NCBI RefSeq assembly: GCF_030053595.1
Contig: NZ_JASGBQ010000003.1
Coordinates: 124,001-188,000 of the forward strand
DNA: 64,000 nucleotides
Source of the DNA: Fusibacillus kribbianus
GTDB lineage: Bacteria > Bacillota > Clostridia > Lachnospirales > Lachnospiraceae
Direction of reading: 5' to 3'
In this document: positions 54,538-64,000 of the stretch, one piece after another
Layout of the letters: the number at the start of each line of letters is the position of its first letter
Numbering within the stretch: position 1 is the stretch's first letter
The notes under the pieces: generated by a model
What the model was told of the DNA's origin: nothing
Databases searched by the model: none
Seen by the model: only the letters and a program-made list of their open reading frames with translations
Position numbers and translations under genes: made by a program

Positions 54538-56004
54538 TTATGCATGGACTCCCAGCCGCATTACGCCCCGCATATCGATAATGGGGCCTCCCGTTTTTTC
54601 GATATAAGCCTTTGTGATCGTCACGCGGCCGATATTGTCATCCTTGGGAATTTCATACATGATATCCAGCATATATTCCTCCAGGATCGCCCGCAGAGCT
54701 CTGGCTCCTGTATGGCGCTCCATAGCCTTTTCGGCAATGGCCTCCAGCGCATCATCCTCAAAAACAAGCTGCACCTCATCCATTTGAAGAAGCTTCTCAT
54801 ATTGCTTTAAGATCGCATTTTTCGGCTCCTTCAGAATCCGTATCATAAATTCTTTGGTGAGTGCCTCCAGGGACACAAGGACCGGAAGCCGCCCCAGGAA
54901 CTCGGGGATCATGCCGAATTTCTTCAAATCATCCATTTCCGCTTTGCACAGAAGATTTTCATCCTGATCATACCGGTCCCTAAGCTCTGCCCGGAAGCCG
55001 ATGGAAGACTCCTTCGTGAGTCTCTCCTTGATGATCTCCTCCAGATCAGGGAACGCGCCCCCGCAGATGAAAAGGATATTGTTGGTATTCACGGTCGTCA
55101 TGGGCACCATGGCATTCTTACTGTTGGATCCCACCGGGACCTCGACCTCGCTGCCCTCCAGCATCTTTAAAAGTTCCTGCTGCACGGATTCCCCGCTGAC
55201 ATCTCTCGTATTCGTATTGCGTTTTTTTGCAATCTTATCTATTTCGTCAATATAGATAATGCCCTGCTCCGCCTTCTCCACGTCATTGCCGGCGGCCTGA
55301 AGAAGCTTGGAAACCACGCTTTCGATATCATCGCCGATGTATCCGGCTTCTGTAAGTGATGTGGCATCTGCGATGGCAAGAGGCACATCCAGAAGTCTGG
55401 CCAGTGTCTTCACCAGATAGGTTTTTCCGCTTCCGGTGGGGCCCAGCAGCAGCATATTGGACTTTTCGATCTCAATACCATCGGTATTATCTGCACACAC
55501 CCGTTTATAATGGTTGTAGACTGCCACAGAAATGGCCTTCTTTGCCTTTTCCTGTCCCACCACATACTCGTCCAGCATCTGTTTGATCTGATGAGGCGCC
55601 GGAATTGTCTTTCTGTCAAAAACAGGCTTTTTTTCCTTTTCCTTTTTCTTTTTGATCCTCTGATTCTTGGGTATCTCCCGTTCTCCGATGCCAAGATCGG
55701 CCAGATTGATCACACCGACGCCGGGAATATTGGAAAGCGCAGAAAGATCAAAGCCATCCTGGCCATTGCCCGGCACTCCCAGATTGATCCCATAAGGCGC
55801 ACCATTCTTCTCAAAGCTGTCAAACGCCTTCTGCATACAATCCCGGCAGATGGTAATGTTCCCCGGCATGGTGATCATTTTCCCCGCTCTGCTCTCCGGT
55901 CTCCGGCAGACGAAGCATATTTTCTCGTATTCGTCCTCTTTCTGCTCCTGCTTTTCCTGCTCCATAATCTCTTCTGATTTATCTTCATCAAACTGTTTTT
56001 CCAT
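54538..56004 (-). CDS. ClpX-like AAA+ unfoldase
   Basis: 488 residues from the ATG at 56004, about 60-70 longer than ordinary ClpX. A treble-clef zinc site CFVCRRPES...ICRDC is at the N-terminus, but an extra acidic segment precedes it and a linker of about 70 residues with a basic run (KNQRIKKKKEKEKK) follows. AAA+ core: DEYVVGQEKAKKAISVAVYNHYKRV, Walker A GPTGSGKTYLVKTLA, ADATSLTEAGYIGDD, Walker B GIIYIDEIDKI and sensor-2 HTGARALRAILEE. The IGF loop for ClpP docking is not obvious: the place reads ESSIGFRAEL, which does contain IGF. Probably a second ClpX paralogue. Own promoter at 56038-56066. Confidence 0.85.
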   Translation of the reverse strand: MEKQFDEDKSEEIMEQEKQEQKEDEYEKICFVCRRPESRAGKMITMPGNITICRDCMQKAFDSFEKNGAPYGINLGVPGNGQDGFDLSALSNIPGVGVINLADLGIGEREIPKNQRIKKKKEKEKKPVFDRKTIPAPHQIKQMLDEYVVGQEKAKKAISVAVYNHYKRVCADNTDGIEIEKSNMLLLGPTGSGKTYLVKTLARLLDVPLAIADATSLTEAGYIGDDIESVVSKLLQAAGNDVEKAEQGIIYIDEIDKIAKKRNTNTRDVSGESVQQELLKMLEGSEVEVPVGSNSKNAMVPMTTVNTNNILFICGGAFPDLEEIIKERLTKESSIGFRAELRDRYDQDENLLCKAEMDDLKKFGMIPEFLGRLPVLVSLEALTKEFMIRILKEPKNAILKQYEKLLQMDEVQLVFEDDALEAIAEKAMERHTGARALRAILEEYMLDIMYEIPKDDNIGRVTITKAYIEKTGGPIIDMRGVMRLGVHA

Positions 56005-56037
56005 AGATCCTATCTCCCTTTTCTGCACTCTTTTCTC

Positions 56038-57679: not shown

Positions 57680-59188
57680 TCAATTTGTTCTGTCTTCCGC
57701 GGAATATCCGGTCAGTGCCTCGATCTTATTACTGATCTGTTTTACCGTAGAGGATGGCTCGTAAGTGGTATCACCGAAAAGCTCCTGATGGAACTGGGTC
57801 ACATCCTCGGCAAGACCGAGGGGAACCTTTACGGACGCCCCGCCAACCATGGCATCCACCTGGTGATACGGGAAGGCTGCCGTCTTTGTGATCTTATAAG
57901 AACCGATATCGGGAACAAGGGCCAGCACATCTGCCAGGGTCAGATTGGTCCGGATCTCGGGAAATACTGCATTGCATATGTCTAAAAGCTGCGACGCGCT
58001 GGCGCTCTTTGCCTTGTCCAGGATCATACCGATCACTTCCCTCTGCCGCTGGGCACGGCCGTCATCTCCACCATTGTTGTGACGGATCCGGCAGTAGGCC
58101 ACCGTCTGGATCCCATCCAGAGTCTGAAGGCCGGGGCCTTTCAGCTGAACCGATCCCTTTCCCAATCCGGTCGCCCAGCTCTTGGTCTCCTCCACCGTAT
58201 TGGTGATATAGCCGTTGATCTCACCCATCATGGTCTCCGGGACGTCAATTTCCAGACCGCCCAGTAGATCCACCACCTGAGCCACTGCATACCAGTTGAC
58301 ACTCACATACTCAGTGATCTGCAGATCCAGGTTTTTGTTGATGGCATTCAAGGCTCCCAGCTCCTCCCCGGTATGATAGGCGTTGTTGGCCTTGGCATAT
58401 TTATCCATATCACCGGTGCTCAGATCCGGAACATTCCAGTAGGTATCCCGAAGCACCGAGGTGAGAGAGATCTCGCCGGTTTTATTGTCAACGTTGGCGA
58501 CCATGATCACATCGCTGTGGCTTCCGTTCTCATCAATGCCGAAAATGGCAATGGTCCGGTATCCCTCCATGCTCTTGAGTGTGTTTTCTGACAGTTCATT
58601 GACATGGACATCCTTTTTCCCGAAGGATGCCTTCTGAATCAGATCCCATTTGGAGATCACAAAAAGACAAAGAAGGACGAGCACGAGCAGAACACCCTCC
58701 ACTGCAAATAAAATCTTTCTGTTGCGGCGTTTCTTTTTTGCCTTTGCGGAGAGCCGCTTCTTTCCGTTTCTCCCTGACGGTGCCGTTTCTGTTCTGGTCC
58801 GTTTTCTGGTGGACATATCCTCATAGGAATCGTCGTAAGCGGCCGTTCTTCTGTCACTTGTCCGCCTGTCGTAAGGATCCGTACCCATGGTTCTCCTGGA
58901 GGTTCCGGTTCTGGCAGATGCGCCGTAAGGCGCTCCCGCACTGTAGGAGGTCCTTGAAGCAGATCTGCTTCCTGTCCCGGAAGCGGTTCTCGCTCCCGCT
59001 GCGGTCCTTGCTCCGCTTCCCGTCGACGTGCTTCTTGTCCCGGAGGCCGTTCTCCTGCTGCCGGCTGTCTGTCCCGTGGTATTCTTCCTCCTCTGGGAAG
59101 TCATTTCTGCATCAGGCCGCACACGCCTGCGCTGCTCCAGCTCCCGTCTGCGGCTTTCATATTCATATTCATCGTCTCTGTATCTCAT
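57680..59188 (-). CDS. LytR-CpsA-Psr (LCP) family protein with long basic N-terminus
   Basis: 502 residues. The first 160 are cytoplasmic low complexity (Arg, Ser, Thr, Gly and Ala in short repeats such as GARTA and GTRST) and probably disordered. One membrane segment (ILFAVEGVLLVLVLLCLFVISKW) is followed by the LCP domain: IAIFGIDENGSHSDVIMVANVD, TSVLRDTYWNVP with the key Arg, AVAQVVDLLGGLEIDV and YCRIRHNNGGDDGRAQRQREVI. Ligates lipid-linked glycans to the wall. It follows the WcaJ-type transferase by 29 bases, so one transcript makes the first and last enzymes of a glycan pathway. A different LCP protein is at 6758-7975. Confidence 0.94.
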   Translation of the reverse strand: MRYRDDEYEYESRRRELEQRRRVRPDAEMTSQRRKNTTGQTAGSRRTASGTRSTSTGSGARTAAGARTASGTGSRSASRTSYSAGAPYGASARTGTSRRTMGTDPYDRRTSDRRTAAYDDSYEDMSTRKRTRTETAPSGRNGKKRLSAKAKKKRRNRKILFAVEGVLLVLVLLCLFVISKWDLIQKASFGKKDVHVNELSENTLKSMEGYRTIAIFGIDENGSHSDVIMVANVDNKTGEISLTSVLRDTYWNVPDLSTGDMDKYAKANNAYHTGEELGALNAINKNLDLQITEYVSVNWYAVAQVVDLLGGLEIDVPETMMGEINGYITNTVEETKSWATGLGKGSVQLKGPGLQTLDGIQTVAYCRIRHNNGGDDGRAQRQREVIGMILDKAKSASASQLLDICNAVFPEIRTNLTLADVLALVPDIGSYKITKTAAFPYHQVDAMVGGASVKVPLGLAEDVTQFHQELFGDTTYEPSSTVKQISNKIEALTGYSAEDRTN

Positions 59189-59217
59189 GGCCTGTTCCTT
59201 TCCACATTCTGCATTTT

Positions 59218-60618
59218 CTAGTAAGCATTTTTATTGACAAAGCCCTTAAAAAACGTCAGAAAAATGATCTTAAAATCCAAACCCAGACTCCAGTTCTCTA
59301 TATAGTACAGATCGTACTCCACACGTTTTGTAATGGAGGTATCCCCCCGGTATCCGTTGACCTGAGCCCAGCCGGTCAGCCCCGGCCGCACCTGATGCTT
59401 CACCATATACCTGGGAATTTCCTCCCGGAATTTTTCCACAAAATGAGGGCGCTCCGGCCGCGGTCCCACAAGGCTCATATCTCCCCTGATAATATTAAAA
59501 AACTGAGGAAGCTCATCTATGCTTGTCTTTCGGATAAACCGCCCTACCGCCGTAACCCTAGGATCATTTTTTGTGGTCCAGGCATTCTTCTCCTCCGACG
59601 GCTTCTGCACCTCCATGGAACGGAACTTGTACATTTTAAAGGGCCGATTGTGAAGTCCTACCCGCTCCTGACTGAAGATCACCGGGCCTGGGGAGGACAG
59701 CTTGACGGCAATGGCCACGATCAGCATGACCGGCGAGAACAGGATCAATGCCACCGTGCCTCCGAAAATATCCATCAGCCGCTTGATGGCTGCATTGAAA
59801 GAGTCCGTAAGAGGCACATGGCGGATATTGATGACCGGAAGTCCCAGAAGATCCTCCGTATATGGCTTCGTCGGTATCATCTTGTTATAATCCGGAATAA
59901 ATTTTGTATGTACGCCGGATTTTTCACAGGCGTTCACGATCCGTTCCAGCTTGTCATATTCATTGATGCTCAGAGTGATGGCGATCTCATCGAGACGGTT
60001 CATGGGCAGGATCTCTTCCAGATTGGCAATGGGGCCGAGCACCCGGATCCCCTTATACTCTGTTCCGCGCTCCGCATTGTCGTCGAGGATTCCCCGAATC
60101 AGATAGCCCCAGTCCGGATTCGCCGTCACCCGGTCAATGTAGGACTGAGCCGCCCGGCTGTAACCGATCAGAAGCACATGCTTCTGGTTGTAGCCTTTTC
60201 TGCGGAAAGAACGGAGAACGCTTCGCAGCGTCAGCCGAAAAGCCGACTCAAAAACAAAATTGAAGCAGATAAACAGAAAAACCAACAGACGGGAAAAGTG
60301 CTGCAGCCGATCCTTGGCCAGATAGAGCACCATGGTAATCAGCAATGCTCCGACCACATTGGCCTTCAGTACATTAAAAAGCTCCAGCCGCCGCCCCATC
60401 ACCCGCATAGGCTCGTACAAATGGAAAACCCAGTATAAAATCAGTCCTCCCGGCACGATATAAAGAAGCGCGCTGAAGTAAATCCCCTTGGGCAAAGCCA
60501 GACTCCGCCCCAGATATCCGAAAATAAGCCAATAGGCAATCAGATATGATATCATTAAAATAACTGCATCAATGACCACGTGAAGCCGGTTCAGATGCTT
60601 TTGATTATCTTTAATCAA
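59218..60618 (-). CDS. undecaprenyl-phosphate glucose phosphotransferase, WcaJ type
   Basis: 466 residues from a TTG start at 60618 (GGTG 7 bases upstream; no nearer ATG in the right place). Four to five N-terminal membrane segments, a Rossmann-like middle domain (HVLLIGYSRAAQSYIDRV), another membrane segment, then the phosphoglycosyl transferase core: SPGPVIFSQERVG, YKFRSME, VGRFIRKTSIDELPQFFNI with the Asp-Glu pair, VGPRPERPHFV and RPGLTGWAQVNGYRGDT. Loads a hexose 1-phosphate onto undecaprenyl phosphate. Second priming enzyme of the window, of the long polytopic form. Confidence 0.94.
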   Translation of the reverse strand: MIKDNQKHLNRLHVVIDAVILMISYLIAYWLIFGYLGRSLALPKGIYFSALLYIVPGGLILYWVFHLYEPMRVMGRRLELFNVLKANVVGALLITMVLYLAKDRLQHFSRLLVFLFICFNFVFESAFRLTLRSVLRSFRRKGYNQKHVLLIGYSRAAQSYIDRVTANPDWGYLIRGILDDNAERGTEYKGIRVLGPIANLEEILPMNRLDEIAITLSINEYDKLERIVNACEKSGVHTKFIPDYNKMIPTKPYTEDLLGLPVINIRHVPLTDSFNAAIKRLMDIFGGTVALILFSPVMLIVAIAVKLSSPGPVIFSQERVGLHNRPFKMYKFRSMEVQKPSEEKNAWTTKNDPRVTAVGRFIRKTSIDELPQFFNIIRGDMSLVGPRPERPHFVEKFREEIPRYMVKHQVRPGLTGWAQVNGYRGDTSITKRVEYDLYYIENWSLGLDFKIIFLTFFKGFVNKNAY

Positions 60619-60668
60619 GGTCTTTCACCCAATAACCTTCCCTGCGATTACAGTCGTTATCGCTTTAT

Positions 60669-60697
60669 ATCATACATTATCTTCCTGCAAAGGGCAA
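60669..60697 (-). promoter_or_regulatory. promoter of the WcaJ-type/LCP operon
   Basis: Minus strand TTGCCC (60697-60692), 17-base spacer, TATGAT (60674-60669). Confidence 0.7.
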
Positions 60698-60729
60698 CCG
60701 AAAAAACAATGACTATTCTTAAAGTTTTC

Positions 60730-61725
60730 TTAATCGGTAGCCGGCGGCCCGGAAAGCTTCCTGTGAACAAATTCATAGATATAGGTAAAGGTTCCGCCGA
60801 TCAGCCTTCCCTCGATACAGATATAATTCCACAGGTGCTTCGAAGAAAACCTTACTTTTTTGCAGGTTTTCCTGGTGCGCCAGCCCTCCCTCAGGCCCTC
60901 TTTATACACTTTACCGAAGCCGATCTTCTCAAAAAACCGGCTTTTTACAAAATACCCTGCCAGGATCGCCGGAAAATTCACCGCCAGCTGAAACAGAGGC
61001 ATGTTTTTATAATTCAGATAAATGCTGTTTCTGGCTGCCAGACGCACCTTGAATTCATTGTATTTGGATCCGCTTGTCCCGCTGCCCACATGCTCCACCC
61101 TGGCCTCCGGACAGTAGAGATTCTGCCAGCCATGGATCCTGGCCCGATATCCCACATCCAGATCCTCCAGATAAGCAAAGTGCTTCTCATCAAAGTATCC
61201 GATTTCCTCAAACACCTGGCGACGATACGCTGCAGCACCGGCACAGGCTGAAAAAACCCTCGCCGGCCTTTCATAGCGGTTCACCGAATGTCCCACTCCC
61301 CGCTGAAATGCCCAGCCCAGTACCGTATACTGATCCCCAGCATCGTCGATCAGCTCCGGATGGTACATCTGGATCATTTTCGCACTGACAGAAAAGGCCC
61401 GTGGATTTTCATCGAGGGTGCGGACCATCGCTTCCACATAGCCCGGACACACCTTCGTATCATTGTTAAGGAGAATCACGTAGGGGGTCTTTGCCGCCCG
61501 GATTCCTTCATTGACTGCGCGGCTGAAACCGTAGTTCTCCTGCAGTGCAAGGATCTCCAGCTCCGGATACCGTTCCCGGATAAACGAAAGGCTGCCGTCT
61601 GTGGAGCCATTGTCCACCAAAAGCACCCGAAAGGCCTGCTCCGTCTGAGCGCGCAGTCCCTCCATACATTTCTCCATAAACTGTTTTCCATTGTAATTGG
61701 GAATAATGACTGTAACCTTTTCCAT
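60730..61725 (-). CDS. glycosyltransferase family 2 (rhamnosyltransferase-like)
   Basis: 331 residues from the ATG at 61725 (AGGA 4-5 bases upstream); a GTG at 61797 is at the predicted transcription start. GT-A fold: VTVIIPNYNGKQFMEKCMEGL, LLVDNGSTDGSLSF, YVILLNNDTKVCPGYVEAM with the metal-binding NDT, YFAYLEDLDVGYRARIHGW with the ED catalytic region. The pattern is that of WbbL/RfbF-like rhamnosyltransferases, which would use the dTDP-rhamnose made by the rfb genes at 47.7-50.5 kb. No membrane segment; peripheral. Confidence 0.88.
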   Translation of the reverse strand: MEKVTVIIPNYNGKQFMEKCMEGLRAQTEQAFRVLLVDNGSTDGSLSFIRERYPELEILALQENYGFSRAVNEGIRAAKTPYVILLNNDTKVCPGYVEAMVRTLDENPRAFSVSAKMIQMYHPELIDDAGDQYTVLGWAFQRGVGHSVNRYERPARVFSACAGAAAYRRQVFEEIGYFDEKHFAYLEDLDVGYRARIHGWQNLYCPEARVEHVGSGTSGSKYNEFKVRLAARNSIYLNYKNMPLFQLAVNFPAILAGYFVKSRFFEKIGFGKVYKEGLREGWRTRKTCKKVRFSSKHLWNYICIEGRLIGGTFTYIYEFVHRKLSGPPATD

Positions 61726-61806
61726 GTTATCCTGATACTCCGCCTGCGATGGGAATAAATTCCTCTGTATTTCTTTGCTTCTTTTTTTAACCTGCACAGT
61801 TTATCT

Positions 61807-61973: not shown

Positions 61974-62120
61974 ATGGATAAAGATTCCAGACGTGAGGAA
62001 ACTCTGCAGGAACGCATTCAGAATCTGGAAGCCGAAAATGAACGACTCTATCAGATTGTCAGACAGCTGAATTCCACTCTGCAGAGATTGATCGATGCCT
62101 ATATTCAGCCTGAAACGTAA
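61974..62120 (+). CDS. 48-residue coiled-coil protein
   Basis: 48 residues, MDKDSRREETLQERIQNLEA then a heptad run with ENERLYQIVRQLNSTLQRL and a short end IQPET. The Leu/Ile spacing (4-3) is that of a parallel coiled coil of about four heptads, like the zipper of small regulatory or scaffolding proteins. AAAGG lies 3-4 bases before the ATG and a perfect terminator follows, so it is very probably a real monocistronic gene. Function unknown. Divergent from the glycosyltransferase gene and just upstream of the Spo0A-like pair. Confidence 0.7.
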   Translation: MDKDSRREETLQERIQNLEAENERLYQIVRQLNSTLQRLIDAYIQPET

Positions 62121-62263: not shown

Positions 62264-62333
62264 TTTGTCGATTAAATTGTCTCATTGTTTGTCTATGTTT
62301 GTACAATTTAGTCTTTTTATGTCTTTCTTTGTT
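62264..62333 (+). repeat. helically phased TTGTC-type repeat array upstream of the Spo0A-domain genes
   Basis: GTC or GTC-like cores, mostly inside TTGTC or ATGTC, begin at 62267, 62279, 62291, 62301 (GTA), 62311, 62321 and 62331 (GTT): steps of 12, 12, 10, 10, 10 and 10. The first, TTTGTCGAT, is one base off the 0A box TTTGTCGAA bound by Spo0A. The array ends about 25 bases before a lone -10-like TATATT (62357-62362) that has no -35, the layout of an activator-dependent promoter for the gene at 62402. Confidence 0.55.
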
Positions 62334-62401
62334 TTCCCTCTGGAATTTCCTCCTTCTATATTCTATTTTTTAAGAAGATTATTACAAAGGAGAAAACAAA
62401 T

Positions 62402-62788
62402 ATGGAAATCGACCTGCAAACCTTTCTTCAATCTATGGGTATTTTCCAGCATTACTGCGGATACCCTCAATTTATTCTGGCCGTTGCCCTGGCCGCAGAA
62501 AATCCCGACAGACTTCACAATATTCGAAGAGAGATCTATATTCCTGTCGCCAGACTATGTCACACAGAGGTTGCAAATGCAGAGAAAAACATCCGGACCG
62601 TCCGCGATGTAATGATGAGAAACGGAGGTGCGGAATTCCTGGCAGCTCTGACCGGAAGCAGTTTCTGGAAAAACAAAACTCCTTACCCCAAAGAGCTCAT
62701 CGAAACCTTTGCAAAATATTTTGGAACAGAAGCACAGAATCTGAGCACAGAATTCAGAAATAGAGATTCTTTTGAAATCAAGTTCTAA
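62402..62788 (+). CDS. stand-alone Spo0A C-terminal-like DNA-binding protein, copy 1
   Basis: 128 residues. The whole protein resembles the effector domain of Spo0A, with no receiver: QSMGIFQHYCGYPQFILAVALA aligns with the GVPAHIKGYQYLREAI region, IYIPVARLCHTEVANAEKNIRTVRDVMMRNGG with the LYPDIAKKY...RVERAIRHAIEVAWSRGN helix-turn-helix, and TPYPKELIETFAKYF with the last helix. The Spo0A recognition-helix residues SRVER are replaced by EVANAEK. AAAGGAG lies 8 bases before the ATG. It is followed 69 bases on by a paralogue. Without a phosphorylation domain it cannot be switched as Spo0A is; it may compete for, or extend, 0A-box-like sites. Confidence 0.78.
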   Translation: MEIDLQTFLQSMGIFQHYCGYPQFILAVALAAENPDRLHNIRREIYIPVARLCHTEVANAEKNIRTVRDVMMRNGGAEFLAALTGSSFWKNKTPYPKELIETFAKYFGTEAQNLSTEFRNRDSFEIKF

Positions 62789-62857
62789 AAATATAGAATT
62801 TAAAAGAGTTTCCCTCTATGTTTATCTTGAAAAGATAAATTAACAGGAGGAAAAACC

Positions 62858-63205
62858 ATGAAAACAAATCTCGAATCCATTCTTCGCTCCACAGGTGTCT
62901 TTCGCTCCTATGCCGGGTATGGCTTCTTTCTGGAAGCCATATCCATGGCAGCAGAAAACCCGGACCGCCTGAAAGAGATCCACAAAAACCTCTACCTTCC
63001 AATTGCCGAGCGCCACCAGGCAGATGTCCGAAACGTCATCAACAATATCAAAACCATTCGCAATGTGATCATGCGCAATGGCGGCTATCCGTTTCTTGAA
63101 GAGCTCGCCGACTGTAAGTTCCGACAGAAAAACCAGCCTTATCCAAAAGAAATCATAGAGATCTTCGCTGACTATGTCAGAAAGAATCAGATCTCTGTCA
63201 GGTAA
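62858..63205 (+). CDS. stand-alone Spo0A C-terminal-like DNA-binding protein, copy 2
   Basis: 115 residues, paralogue of the preceding gene (shared: AAENPDRL, LYLPIA/IYIPVA, MRNGG, YPKE). RSTGVFRSYAGYGFFLEAISMA and LYLPIAERHQADVRNVINNIKTIRNVIMRNG again follow the Spo0A effector domain; this copy is closer to it (IAERH beside IAEKY). The putative recognition helix differs between copies (VRNVINN against VANAEKN), so they may read different sites. AGGAGG is 7 bases before the ATG. No promoter of its own is seen; probably co-transcribed with copy 1. Confidence 0.8.
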   Translation: MKTNLESILRSTGVFRSYAGYGFFLEAISMAAENPDRLKEIHKNLYLPIAERHQADVRNVINNIKTIRNVIMRNGGYPFLEELADCKFRQKNQPYPKEIIEIFADYVRKNQISVR

Positions 63206-63217
63206 ACAGAGCCAGGA

Positions 63218-63252
63218 CTGCTGCAAAACGCGGACTGACCGTTTTGCAGCAG
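63218..63252 (+). terminator. hairpin after the Spo0A-like pair
   Basis: Perfect 13-bp stem CTGCTGCAAAACG (63218-63230) with CGTTTTGCAGCAG (63240-63252), loop of 9, followed by ATTATT rather than a T-run. Probably the transcript end. Confidence 0.65.
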
Positions 63253-63271
63253 ATTATTCCCCGCGGGGCTC

Positions 63272-63335: not shown

Positions 63336-64000
63336 ATGCAGCCCAACCAATCTTCTGCGCCACGCAATTATCTGTTTGACAATATCAAAGCTCTCATGCT
63401 TTTCTTCGTCGCGTTCGGACACACCCTGGATGTGTACCTGGCTTCCGGCACTTTCGAAATGACTCTGATGAAATACATTTATCTGTTTCATATGCCCATG
63501 TTCGCATTTATTACCGGTTATTTCAGCAAAGATCTGGATAAAGCCCGAAACGGCGCCGTACAGAAATGCCTGGTCCCCTATCTGCTCTTTCAGGGATTAT
63601 ACATCGCCATGGCCAATGCCATGATCGCCATGGGCCTGGCCAGCTTTAACAGTGATGTATTCCAGAGCTCCATCCTGCTTCCTTCTTCCGCATTTTACTA
63701 CCTATTGGCTGTATTTTTCTGGAAACTGTCTGCAAAGGATATTTTCCGGTTCCGATATCCGGTTGTCCTTTCACTCCTTTTGGGGCTTTTCATCAGCATA
63801 ACCTCTCATCAGGACTTTCATCAGGGCCTGGGAGCTGTGTTCAGCCTGCTCTTTTTCTTTGTTCTTGGCGTATTATGCACAGATGCCGCAATCAGAAAAA
63901 TACGGAGTATCCCCCGCTGGATCTCCGTTGTCATTCTGATTGCCGGCATCCTCCCGGCCTATTATCTTCCCTATGCCATCCACAGTGTCCGAATGACCTA
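63336..64000 (+). CDS. acyltransferase 3-family membrane protein (partial, runs off the window)
   Basis: First 221 residues are present. Many hydrophobic segments; the opening NYLFDNIKALMLFFVAFGHTLDVYL contains the D-x-K and xFxVxxGH features of OafA/fucose-4-O-acetylase-like acyltransferases, with the catalytic-type His in FGH, and YLFHMPMFAFITGYFSK follows as is usual. These enzymes acylate sugars of surface polysaccharides or antibiotics in the membrane. GAGGT is 6 bases before the ATG. Substrate unknown; the EPS genes nearby are the likely context. Confidence 0.88.
   Translation, partial: MQPNQSSAPRNYLFDNIKALMLFFVAFGHTLDVYLASGTFEMTLMKYIYLFHMPMFAFITGYFSKDLDKARNGAVQKCLVPYLLFQGLYIAMANAMIAMGLASFNSDVFQSSILLPSSAFYYLLAVFFWKLSAKDIFRFRYPVVLSLLLGLFISITSHQDFHQGLGAVFSLLFFFVLGVLCTDAAIRKIRSIPRWISVVILIAGILPAYYLPYAIHSVRMT

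Follow-up and report, generated by a model that had tools for sequence, protein, structure and literature searches.

Receiver-less Spo0A-type effector domains in Fusibacillus kribbianus, with a phased 0A-like box array ahead of one of their genes

Introduction

Spo0A is a textbook phosphorylation switch. What, then, do two adjacent genes do that encode only its DNA-binding half? The question is raised by genes A and B of Fusibacillus kribbianus, which lie in a 64,000-nucleotide stretch of contig NZ_JASGBQ010000003.1 (positions 124,001 to 188,000; hereafter the window). A large natural family of such bare effectors would show how a master regulator's output part was freed, multiplied and rewired.

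Two bare effector domains

62386..62392, + strand: ribosome-binding site of gene A (AAAGGAG), from sequence reading
62402..62788, + strand: gene A, stand-alone Spo0A effector domain, 128 residues, clade I (PF08769 match; tree)
62858..63205, + strand: gene B, stand-alone Spo0A effector domain, 115 residues, clade III, eroded recognition helix
63218..63252, + strand: hairpin 3' of gene B, 13-bp arms, without a long T run, a possible terminator (sequence and folding; -23.4 kcal/mol for 63205-63262)

The preliminary description of this DNA, made from the sequence alone, had read both genes as a Spo0A effector domain from end to end and had suggested a search against PF08769. In that search, A and B scored 58.5 and 60.3 bits against a gathering cut-off of 25, each matching the whole domain (profile positions 3 to 103 of 104; E-value 7e-16 for A), and the reading was borne out. 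The Spo0A effector domain fold was found for gene B, and identity to the solved domain (PDB 1lq1, 1fc3) is 26-27%. As also described, the paralogues have no N-terminal receiver with its phosphorylation site, the effector domain being all that either encodes, and the model for Spo0A as a sporulation response regulator, TIGR02875, gave them 26.7 and 33.5 bits, below its equivalog cut-off of 200 bits. The recognition helices, VERAIRH in Spo0A, AEKNIRT in A and VINNIKT in B, differ from Spo0A and from each other as had been stated; that of B is altered at the positions of E213 and R214 of Spo0A. What each of the two genes encodes is a Spo0A effector domain that has no receiver and whose recognition helix is changed.

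Because the receiver is absent, A and B should need no phosphorylation, and their control would lie in the amount of protein made. The isolated effector domain of Spo0A (Spo0A-DBD) from C. difficile and B. subtilis binds its sites unphosphorylated (PMC3485338); unlike A and B, which are natural genes of other clades, it is a laboratory construct with the native Spo0A helix.

A phased array of boxes before gene A

62266..62337, + strand: seven 0A-like boxes in an array before gene A (coordinates and window-wide scan)
62341..62369, + strand: predicted promoter of gene A, -35 TGGAAT at 62341-62346, 17-bp spacer, -10 TATTTT at 62364-62369 (layout common to relatives)

The 0A boxes of B. subtilis abrB are 10 bp apart. 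Before gene A, the box cores are GTC at 62267, 62279 and 62291, GTA at 62301, GTC at 62311 and 62321, and GTT at 62331, the last five following one another in exact 10-bp steps and the two outer GTC cores lying 12 and 24 bp further upstream. No other array of at least three phased GTC cores was found on either strand of the 64-kb window, in which weaker or different sites may exist. The canonical 0A box is TGTCGAA, contacted at G2, C4 and G5 (PMC3485338). The array adds a further likeness to Spo0A, that of GTC-core boxes before the gene.

We propose that a Spo0A-type domain, bound head to tail on the phased direct repeats, would control gene A, and that B would be controlled with it by read-through across the 69 bp between the genes. 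The likeliest reader of the array is A itself, with phosphorylated Spo0A (Spo0A~P) able to share the sites. A protein that reads its own array would form an autoregulatory loop, probably a positive one, since the boxes lie upstream of a -35 element that fits TTGACA poorly, which is an activator-type position and suggests activation by the array rather than repression. Gene B has no box array of its own and its base-reading residues are changed, from which we infer that its product probably acts as a partner of A or modulates it.

The preliminary description had suggested that the proteins could act at 0A-like sites as competitors or co-regulators. The sites are present before gene A and many relatives; the competitor role survives only as a rival reading, in which the proteins occupy 0A-like boxes, whether at their own genes (as negative feedback) or at sporulation genes, and restrain Spo0A~P. 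The intact domain without a receiver would suit such a role, and PMC12090719 describes the boxes of B. subtilis spo0A as mainly repressive; the same source describes those of spoIIG, upstream of the promoter, as stimulatory. The activator-type position of the array and helices unlike that of Spo0A at base-reading positions, however, make competition improbable.

A widespread family

The genome survey that had been suggested revealed a family far larger than one pair. Eleven genus genomes hold 55 Spo0A_C matches, comprising 10 full-length Spo0A proteins, one mobile-element fragment and 44 stand-alone genes, with 0 to 8 stand-alone copies per genome. In one genome (G007) Spo0A is the sole match, and in another, 80% complete (G010), no Spo0A was found. 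Among the best matches listed from 396 family genomes, many are short open frames from other genera, and one genome (G330) has 12 Spo0A_C matches, Spo0A included. Among the matches listed outside the family, from 243 class genomes, nearly all are full-length, frames of 125 and 117 residues (G426, G547) being among the others. Of the 41 named loci, most are MAGs that carry a Lachnospiraceae or Clostridia label. Searches of the open-access literature for stand-alone Spo0A_C proteins yielded no paper recognised as dealing with this family, and a match to PF08769 alone is an unsafe marker of Spo0A in Lachnospiraceae.

In a tree of 108 effector domains, which rests on few columns, the four Spo0A rows form a branch of their own (100/99). 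Gene A belongs to clade I (11 rows, 95/91) and gene B to clade III (9 rows, 97/80), and in the pair two old paralogues have come together. Clade II consists of tandem genes that lie close to flagellin and to flagellin-type glycosyltransferases. Clade IV genes adjoin recA and a PEPCK-like gene, syntenically in six genus genomes (L044, L051, L054, L057, L062, L065), in a neighbour cluster named from one member.

Some proteins share part of PF08769 with A and B as mobile-element fragments, and PMC6907783 reports enrichment of PF08769 in mobile elements of gut Firmicutes. The fragment in G000:C22 differs from A and B in being half a domain (profile 34-104, 26.8 bits) and lies apart from the stand-alone family. 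This protein of 75 residues (L004, G000:C22:8450-8656) has topoisomerase-like, sortase-like and XRE-type neighbours in the style of a conjugative element. A viral origin was rejected when a scan of viral contigs with gene B gave no relative.

A further reading, in which the copies of a mobile or duplicated domain are decaying or neutral and the arrays are remnants of a Spo0A-controlled ancestor, would account for the variable copy number, for neighbours that vary among loci, for the eroded helix of B and for the internal stop in one genus copy (G005:C20). All other genus stand-alone matches nevertheless have an uninterrupted frame, the domain is retained end to end, and the spacing of promoter and boxes is exact across divergent copies, so that we regard decay as highly improbable.

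Boxes and promoters among relatives

Genes of clades I and III are preceded by a common layout of GTC triplets, TGGA, 17 bp and a TATATT-like element. A scripted search found a promoter match with a good score in 17 of the 44 genus stand-alone genes; 24 have no pattern match, and three candidates with a score of 2 (L043 6616, gene B and L062) were set aside. GTC stands exactly 20 bp before TGGA in 17/17, and also at 10 bp in eight and at 30 bp in four. The composite pattern GTC-N17-TGGA-N19-TATNTT, with zero mismatches, occurs 19 times in the 11 genus genomes, 15 times before stand-alone genes and four times elsewhere, compared with three occurrences of its reversed control, and is thus nearly exclusive to these genes.

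Across many genera, GTC pairs 10 bp apart precede 34 of 104 stand-alone genes and 11 of 644 control genes from these loci; other GTC spacings average 2.4 genes. A stricter box pattern is present in 25/104 versus 1/644. A further 23 genes, collected once the idea had formed, show the same peak more weakly: three have the 10-bp pair, and the mean for other spacings is 0.5. The pair is missing from two thirds of the 104 genes and from 20 of these 23. The sole control match of the strict pattern (L170:4570-4584) precedes a 124-residue open frame that has no Pfam match and is oriented convergently to a stand-alone gene.

In several other genera, perfect tandem canonical 0A boxes precede stand-alone genes; phased boxes read GTCGAA in 16 of 50 cases outside the genus and in 1 of 25 within it. 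Most promoters of clade II are preceded by a conserved element, CTTGATTTT, and its proteins have Ser at the position aligned to E213. In three clade II tandem loci (L043, L050, L061) a leader carries GGGGCAGCC or GGGGCAGTC with its complement 3' of the same gene, the two covarying by eye. Freed Spo0A effector domains are thus a widespread family in which many members have 0A-like arrays before the genes that encode them, and such pairs of paralogue and array would provide ready material on the joint change of a transcription factor and its operators.

Who reads the boxes

The 10-bp GTC pair is found in none of the 17 genes whose protein lacks Glu at the position aligned to Spo0A E213 and in 34 of the other 87 (Fisher p 0.001), a comparison that ignores kinship, 13 of the 17 belonging to one clade and about five lineages being represented overall. 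The arrays are therefore missing where the protein's Glu was lost, as would be expected if the stand-alone proteins read their own boxes, and clade II, with Ser at that position and a different conserved element before most of its promoters, points the same way; clade IV retains Glu and has no array. The recognition helix of Spo0A is identical in 10 genus genomes, in which the boxes of the stand-alone genes have drifted from GTCGAA. At spoIIGA, an established Spo0A target, the box is GTCGAT in eight of the nine genus loci read and GGCGAT in the ninth (G007), a tenth locus (L195) being left out of the count. Since GTCGAT is conserved there, drifted boxes may still suit Spo0A, and the argument that drift proves self-reading is weakened. 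Clade I-like helices in L077, L078 and L080 accompany canonical boxes.

These observations bear on a different explanation, that the genes are members of the Spo0A regulon: Spo0A~P would read the boxes and turn the genes on or off, and the proteins would relay or sharpen the starvation signal elsewhere, as in a feed-forward arrangement. Since the boxes of other genera are canonical, Spo0A itself may read them, and the conserved GTCGAT at spoIIGA fits as well. Moreover, spoIIGA is present in 31/31 tested stand-alone-bearing genomes outside the genus and a complete full-length Spo0A match in 29/31, the match being partial in G121 and missing in G062. The latter genome, with five stand-alone matches, was considered as a Spo0A-free test case and dropped; as it has spoIIGA, an assembly gap is likelier than true absence of Spo0A. 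Against membership of the regulon stand the composite promoter, nearly private to the genus stand-alone genes, the drift of genus boxes under an unchanged Spo0A helix, and the missing arrays where Glu was lost. This explanation is possible but doubtful, and we hold self-reading by the stand-alone proteins to be moderately ahead of reading by Spo0A. The co-occurrence with spoIIGA and Spo0A, together with the often canonical boxes elsewhere, also lends no support to the suggestion in the preliminary description that the family may have left sporulation control altogether.

A regulon search with GTCKWTTTTNGTCKW gave 18 matches in the 11 genomes and 38 for the reversed pattern, and a looser pattern for the own genome, one mismatch being allowed, gave 8 and 13, neither showing an excess. 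Tandem boxes, GTCGATTTTTGTCGA in the window's genome, precede a histidine-kinase-like gene at L185 (G000:C4:47647-47661) and L193 (G010:C55:13931-13945); the product is a soluble protein of 264 residues with HATPase_c and no evident sensor domain. These boxes may be a genuine site of Spo0A action, at the gene for a kinase that feeds into Spo0A.

Neighbouring genes and surface glycans

57680..61797, - strand: divergent glycosyltransferase 2, sugar transferase and LCP protein, candidate outputs (PF00535; PF02397 with PF13727; PF03816)
61974..62120, + strand: small coiled-coil-like gene of 48 residues upstream of the array, then a hairpin (68% identical copies elsewhere)
63336..64000, + strand: acyltransferase gene, continuing past the window end; 337 residues in L005 (PF01757)

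The likely outputs of the system would be cell-surface glycan genes. Beyond gene B lie the acyltransferase, with a TTGACA/TATATT-like promoter of its own read from the sequence, and two more glycosyltransferase genes. Genes for surface polysaccharides abound in the window: its first 13 kb encode Polysacc_synt_2 and CpsB/CapC proteins and a sugar-transferase-like protein, and 47.7-50.5 kb hold RmlD with epimerase/dehydratase and nucleotidyltransferase genes. The 48-residue gene recurs before the clade I genes in two further genomes (L047, L058). For loci of other genera, a 24-protein surface panel, taken from stand-alone loci and scored with own-locus matches excluded, matched within 4.5 kb of 12 of 49 stand-alone loci and of none of 40 control regions, hand-picked positions on the same contigs (p 0.0004); the 12 are partly dependent, three coming from one genome (L077, L078, L080) and L080, L082 and L096 being one syntenic locus. 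Pfam counts for the neighbours draw on 141 of 176 proteins, with 25 families listed.

The preliminary description had suggested that the pair perhaps governs the polysaccharide genes next door. Its neighbours in the window and the enrichment elsewhere favour this, while a search of both strands of the 64 kb found no box array at the window's polysaccharide promoters, so that a glycan output of A and B themselves is put forward as a hypothesis. Taken as a whole, our explanation, of receiver-less, self-reading autoregulators that act through a phased 0A-like array and probably have surface glycans as outputs, seems to us evenly poised between right and wrong. The glycan link, if true, would add a layer of control to the surface identity of gut anaerobes. 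A bolder version is rather unlikely: that Lachnospiraceae turned the DNA-binding half of Spo0A into multi-copy, self-activating, phosphorylation-free switches, each clade reading its own array type at its own promoter, with heritable on/off states choosing surface glycans and B-type partners tuning the switch.

Two stand-alone genes, at L080 and L096, are each transcribed divergently from a Polysacc_synt_2 operon with a NusG paralogue (identified by BLAST in L096), and a box pair lies between the two divergent start regions; at L077 and L078, NusG-paralogue operons are divergent on the same side. Some stand-alone genes of other genera adjoin capsule-type operons with a NusG paralogue. NusG paralogues such as LoaP, locus-specific regulators of capsule operons, differ from A and B in protein family and mechanism; no NusG-panel match occurs in the window. 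Bacteroides UpxY/UpxZ are comparable regulators of such operons.

All 7/7 loci of clade II tandem genes have flagellin at a distance of 2.9-5.3 kb, and the genes occur in exactly those seven of the 11 genus genomes in which flagellin is matched above the cut-off. The idea that clade II controls flagellin was rejected: the window's genome has no flagellin match over the cut-off, and the flagellin promoters are sigma-28-like by eye, without boxes. Elsewhere in the window, 54538-56028 encodes a ClpX-like ATPase of 496 residues with a C4 zinc finger, longer than the usual ClpX and perhaps a second ClpX.
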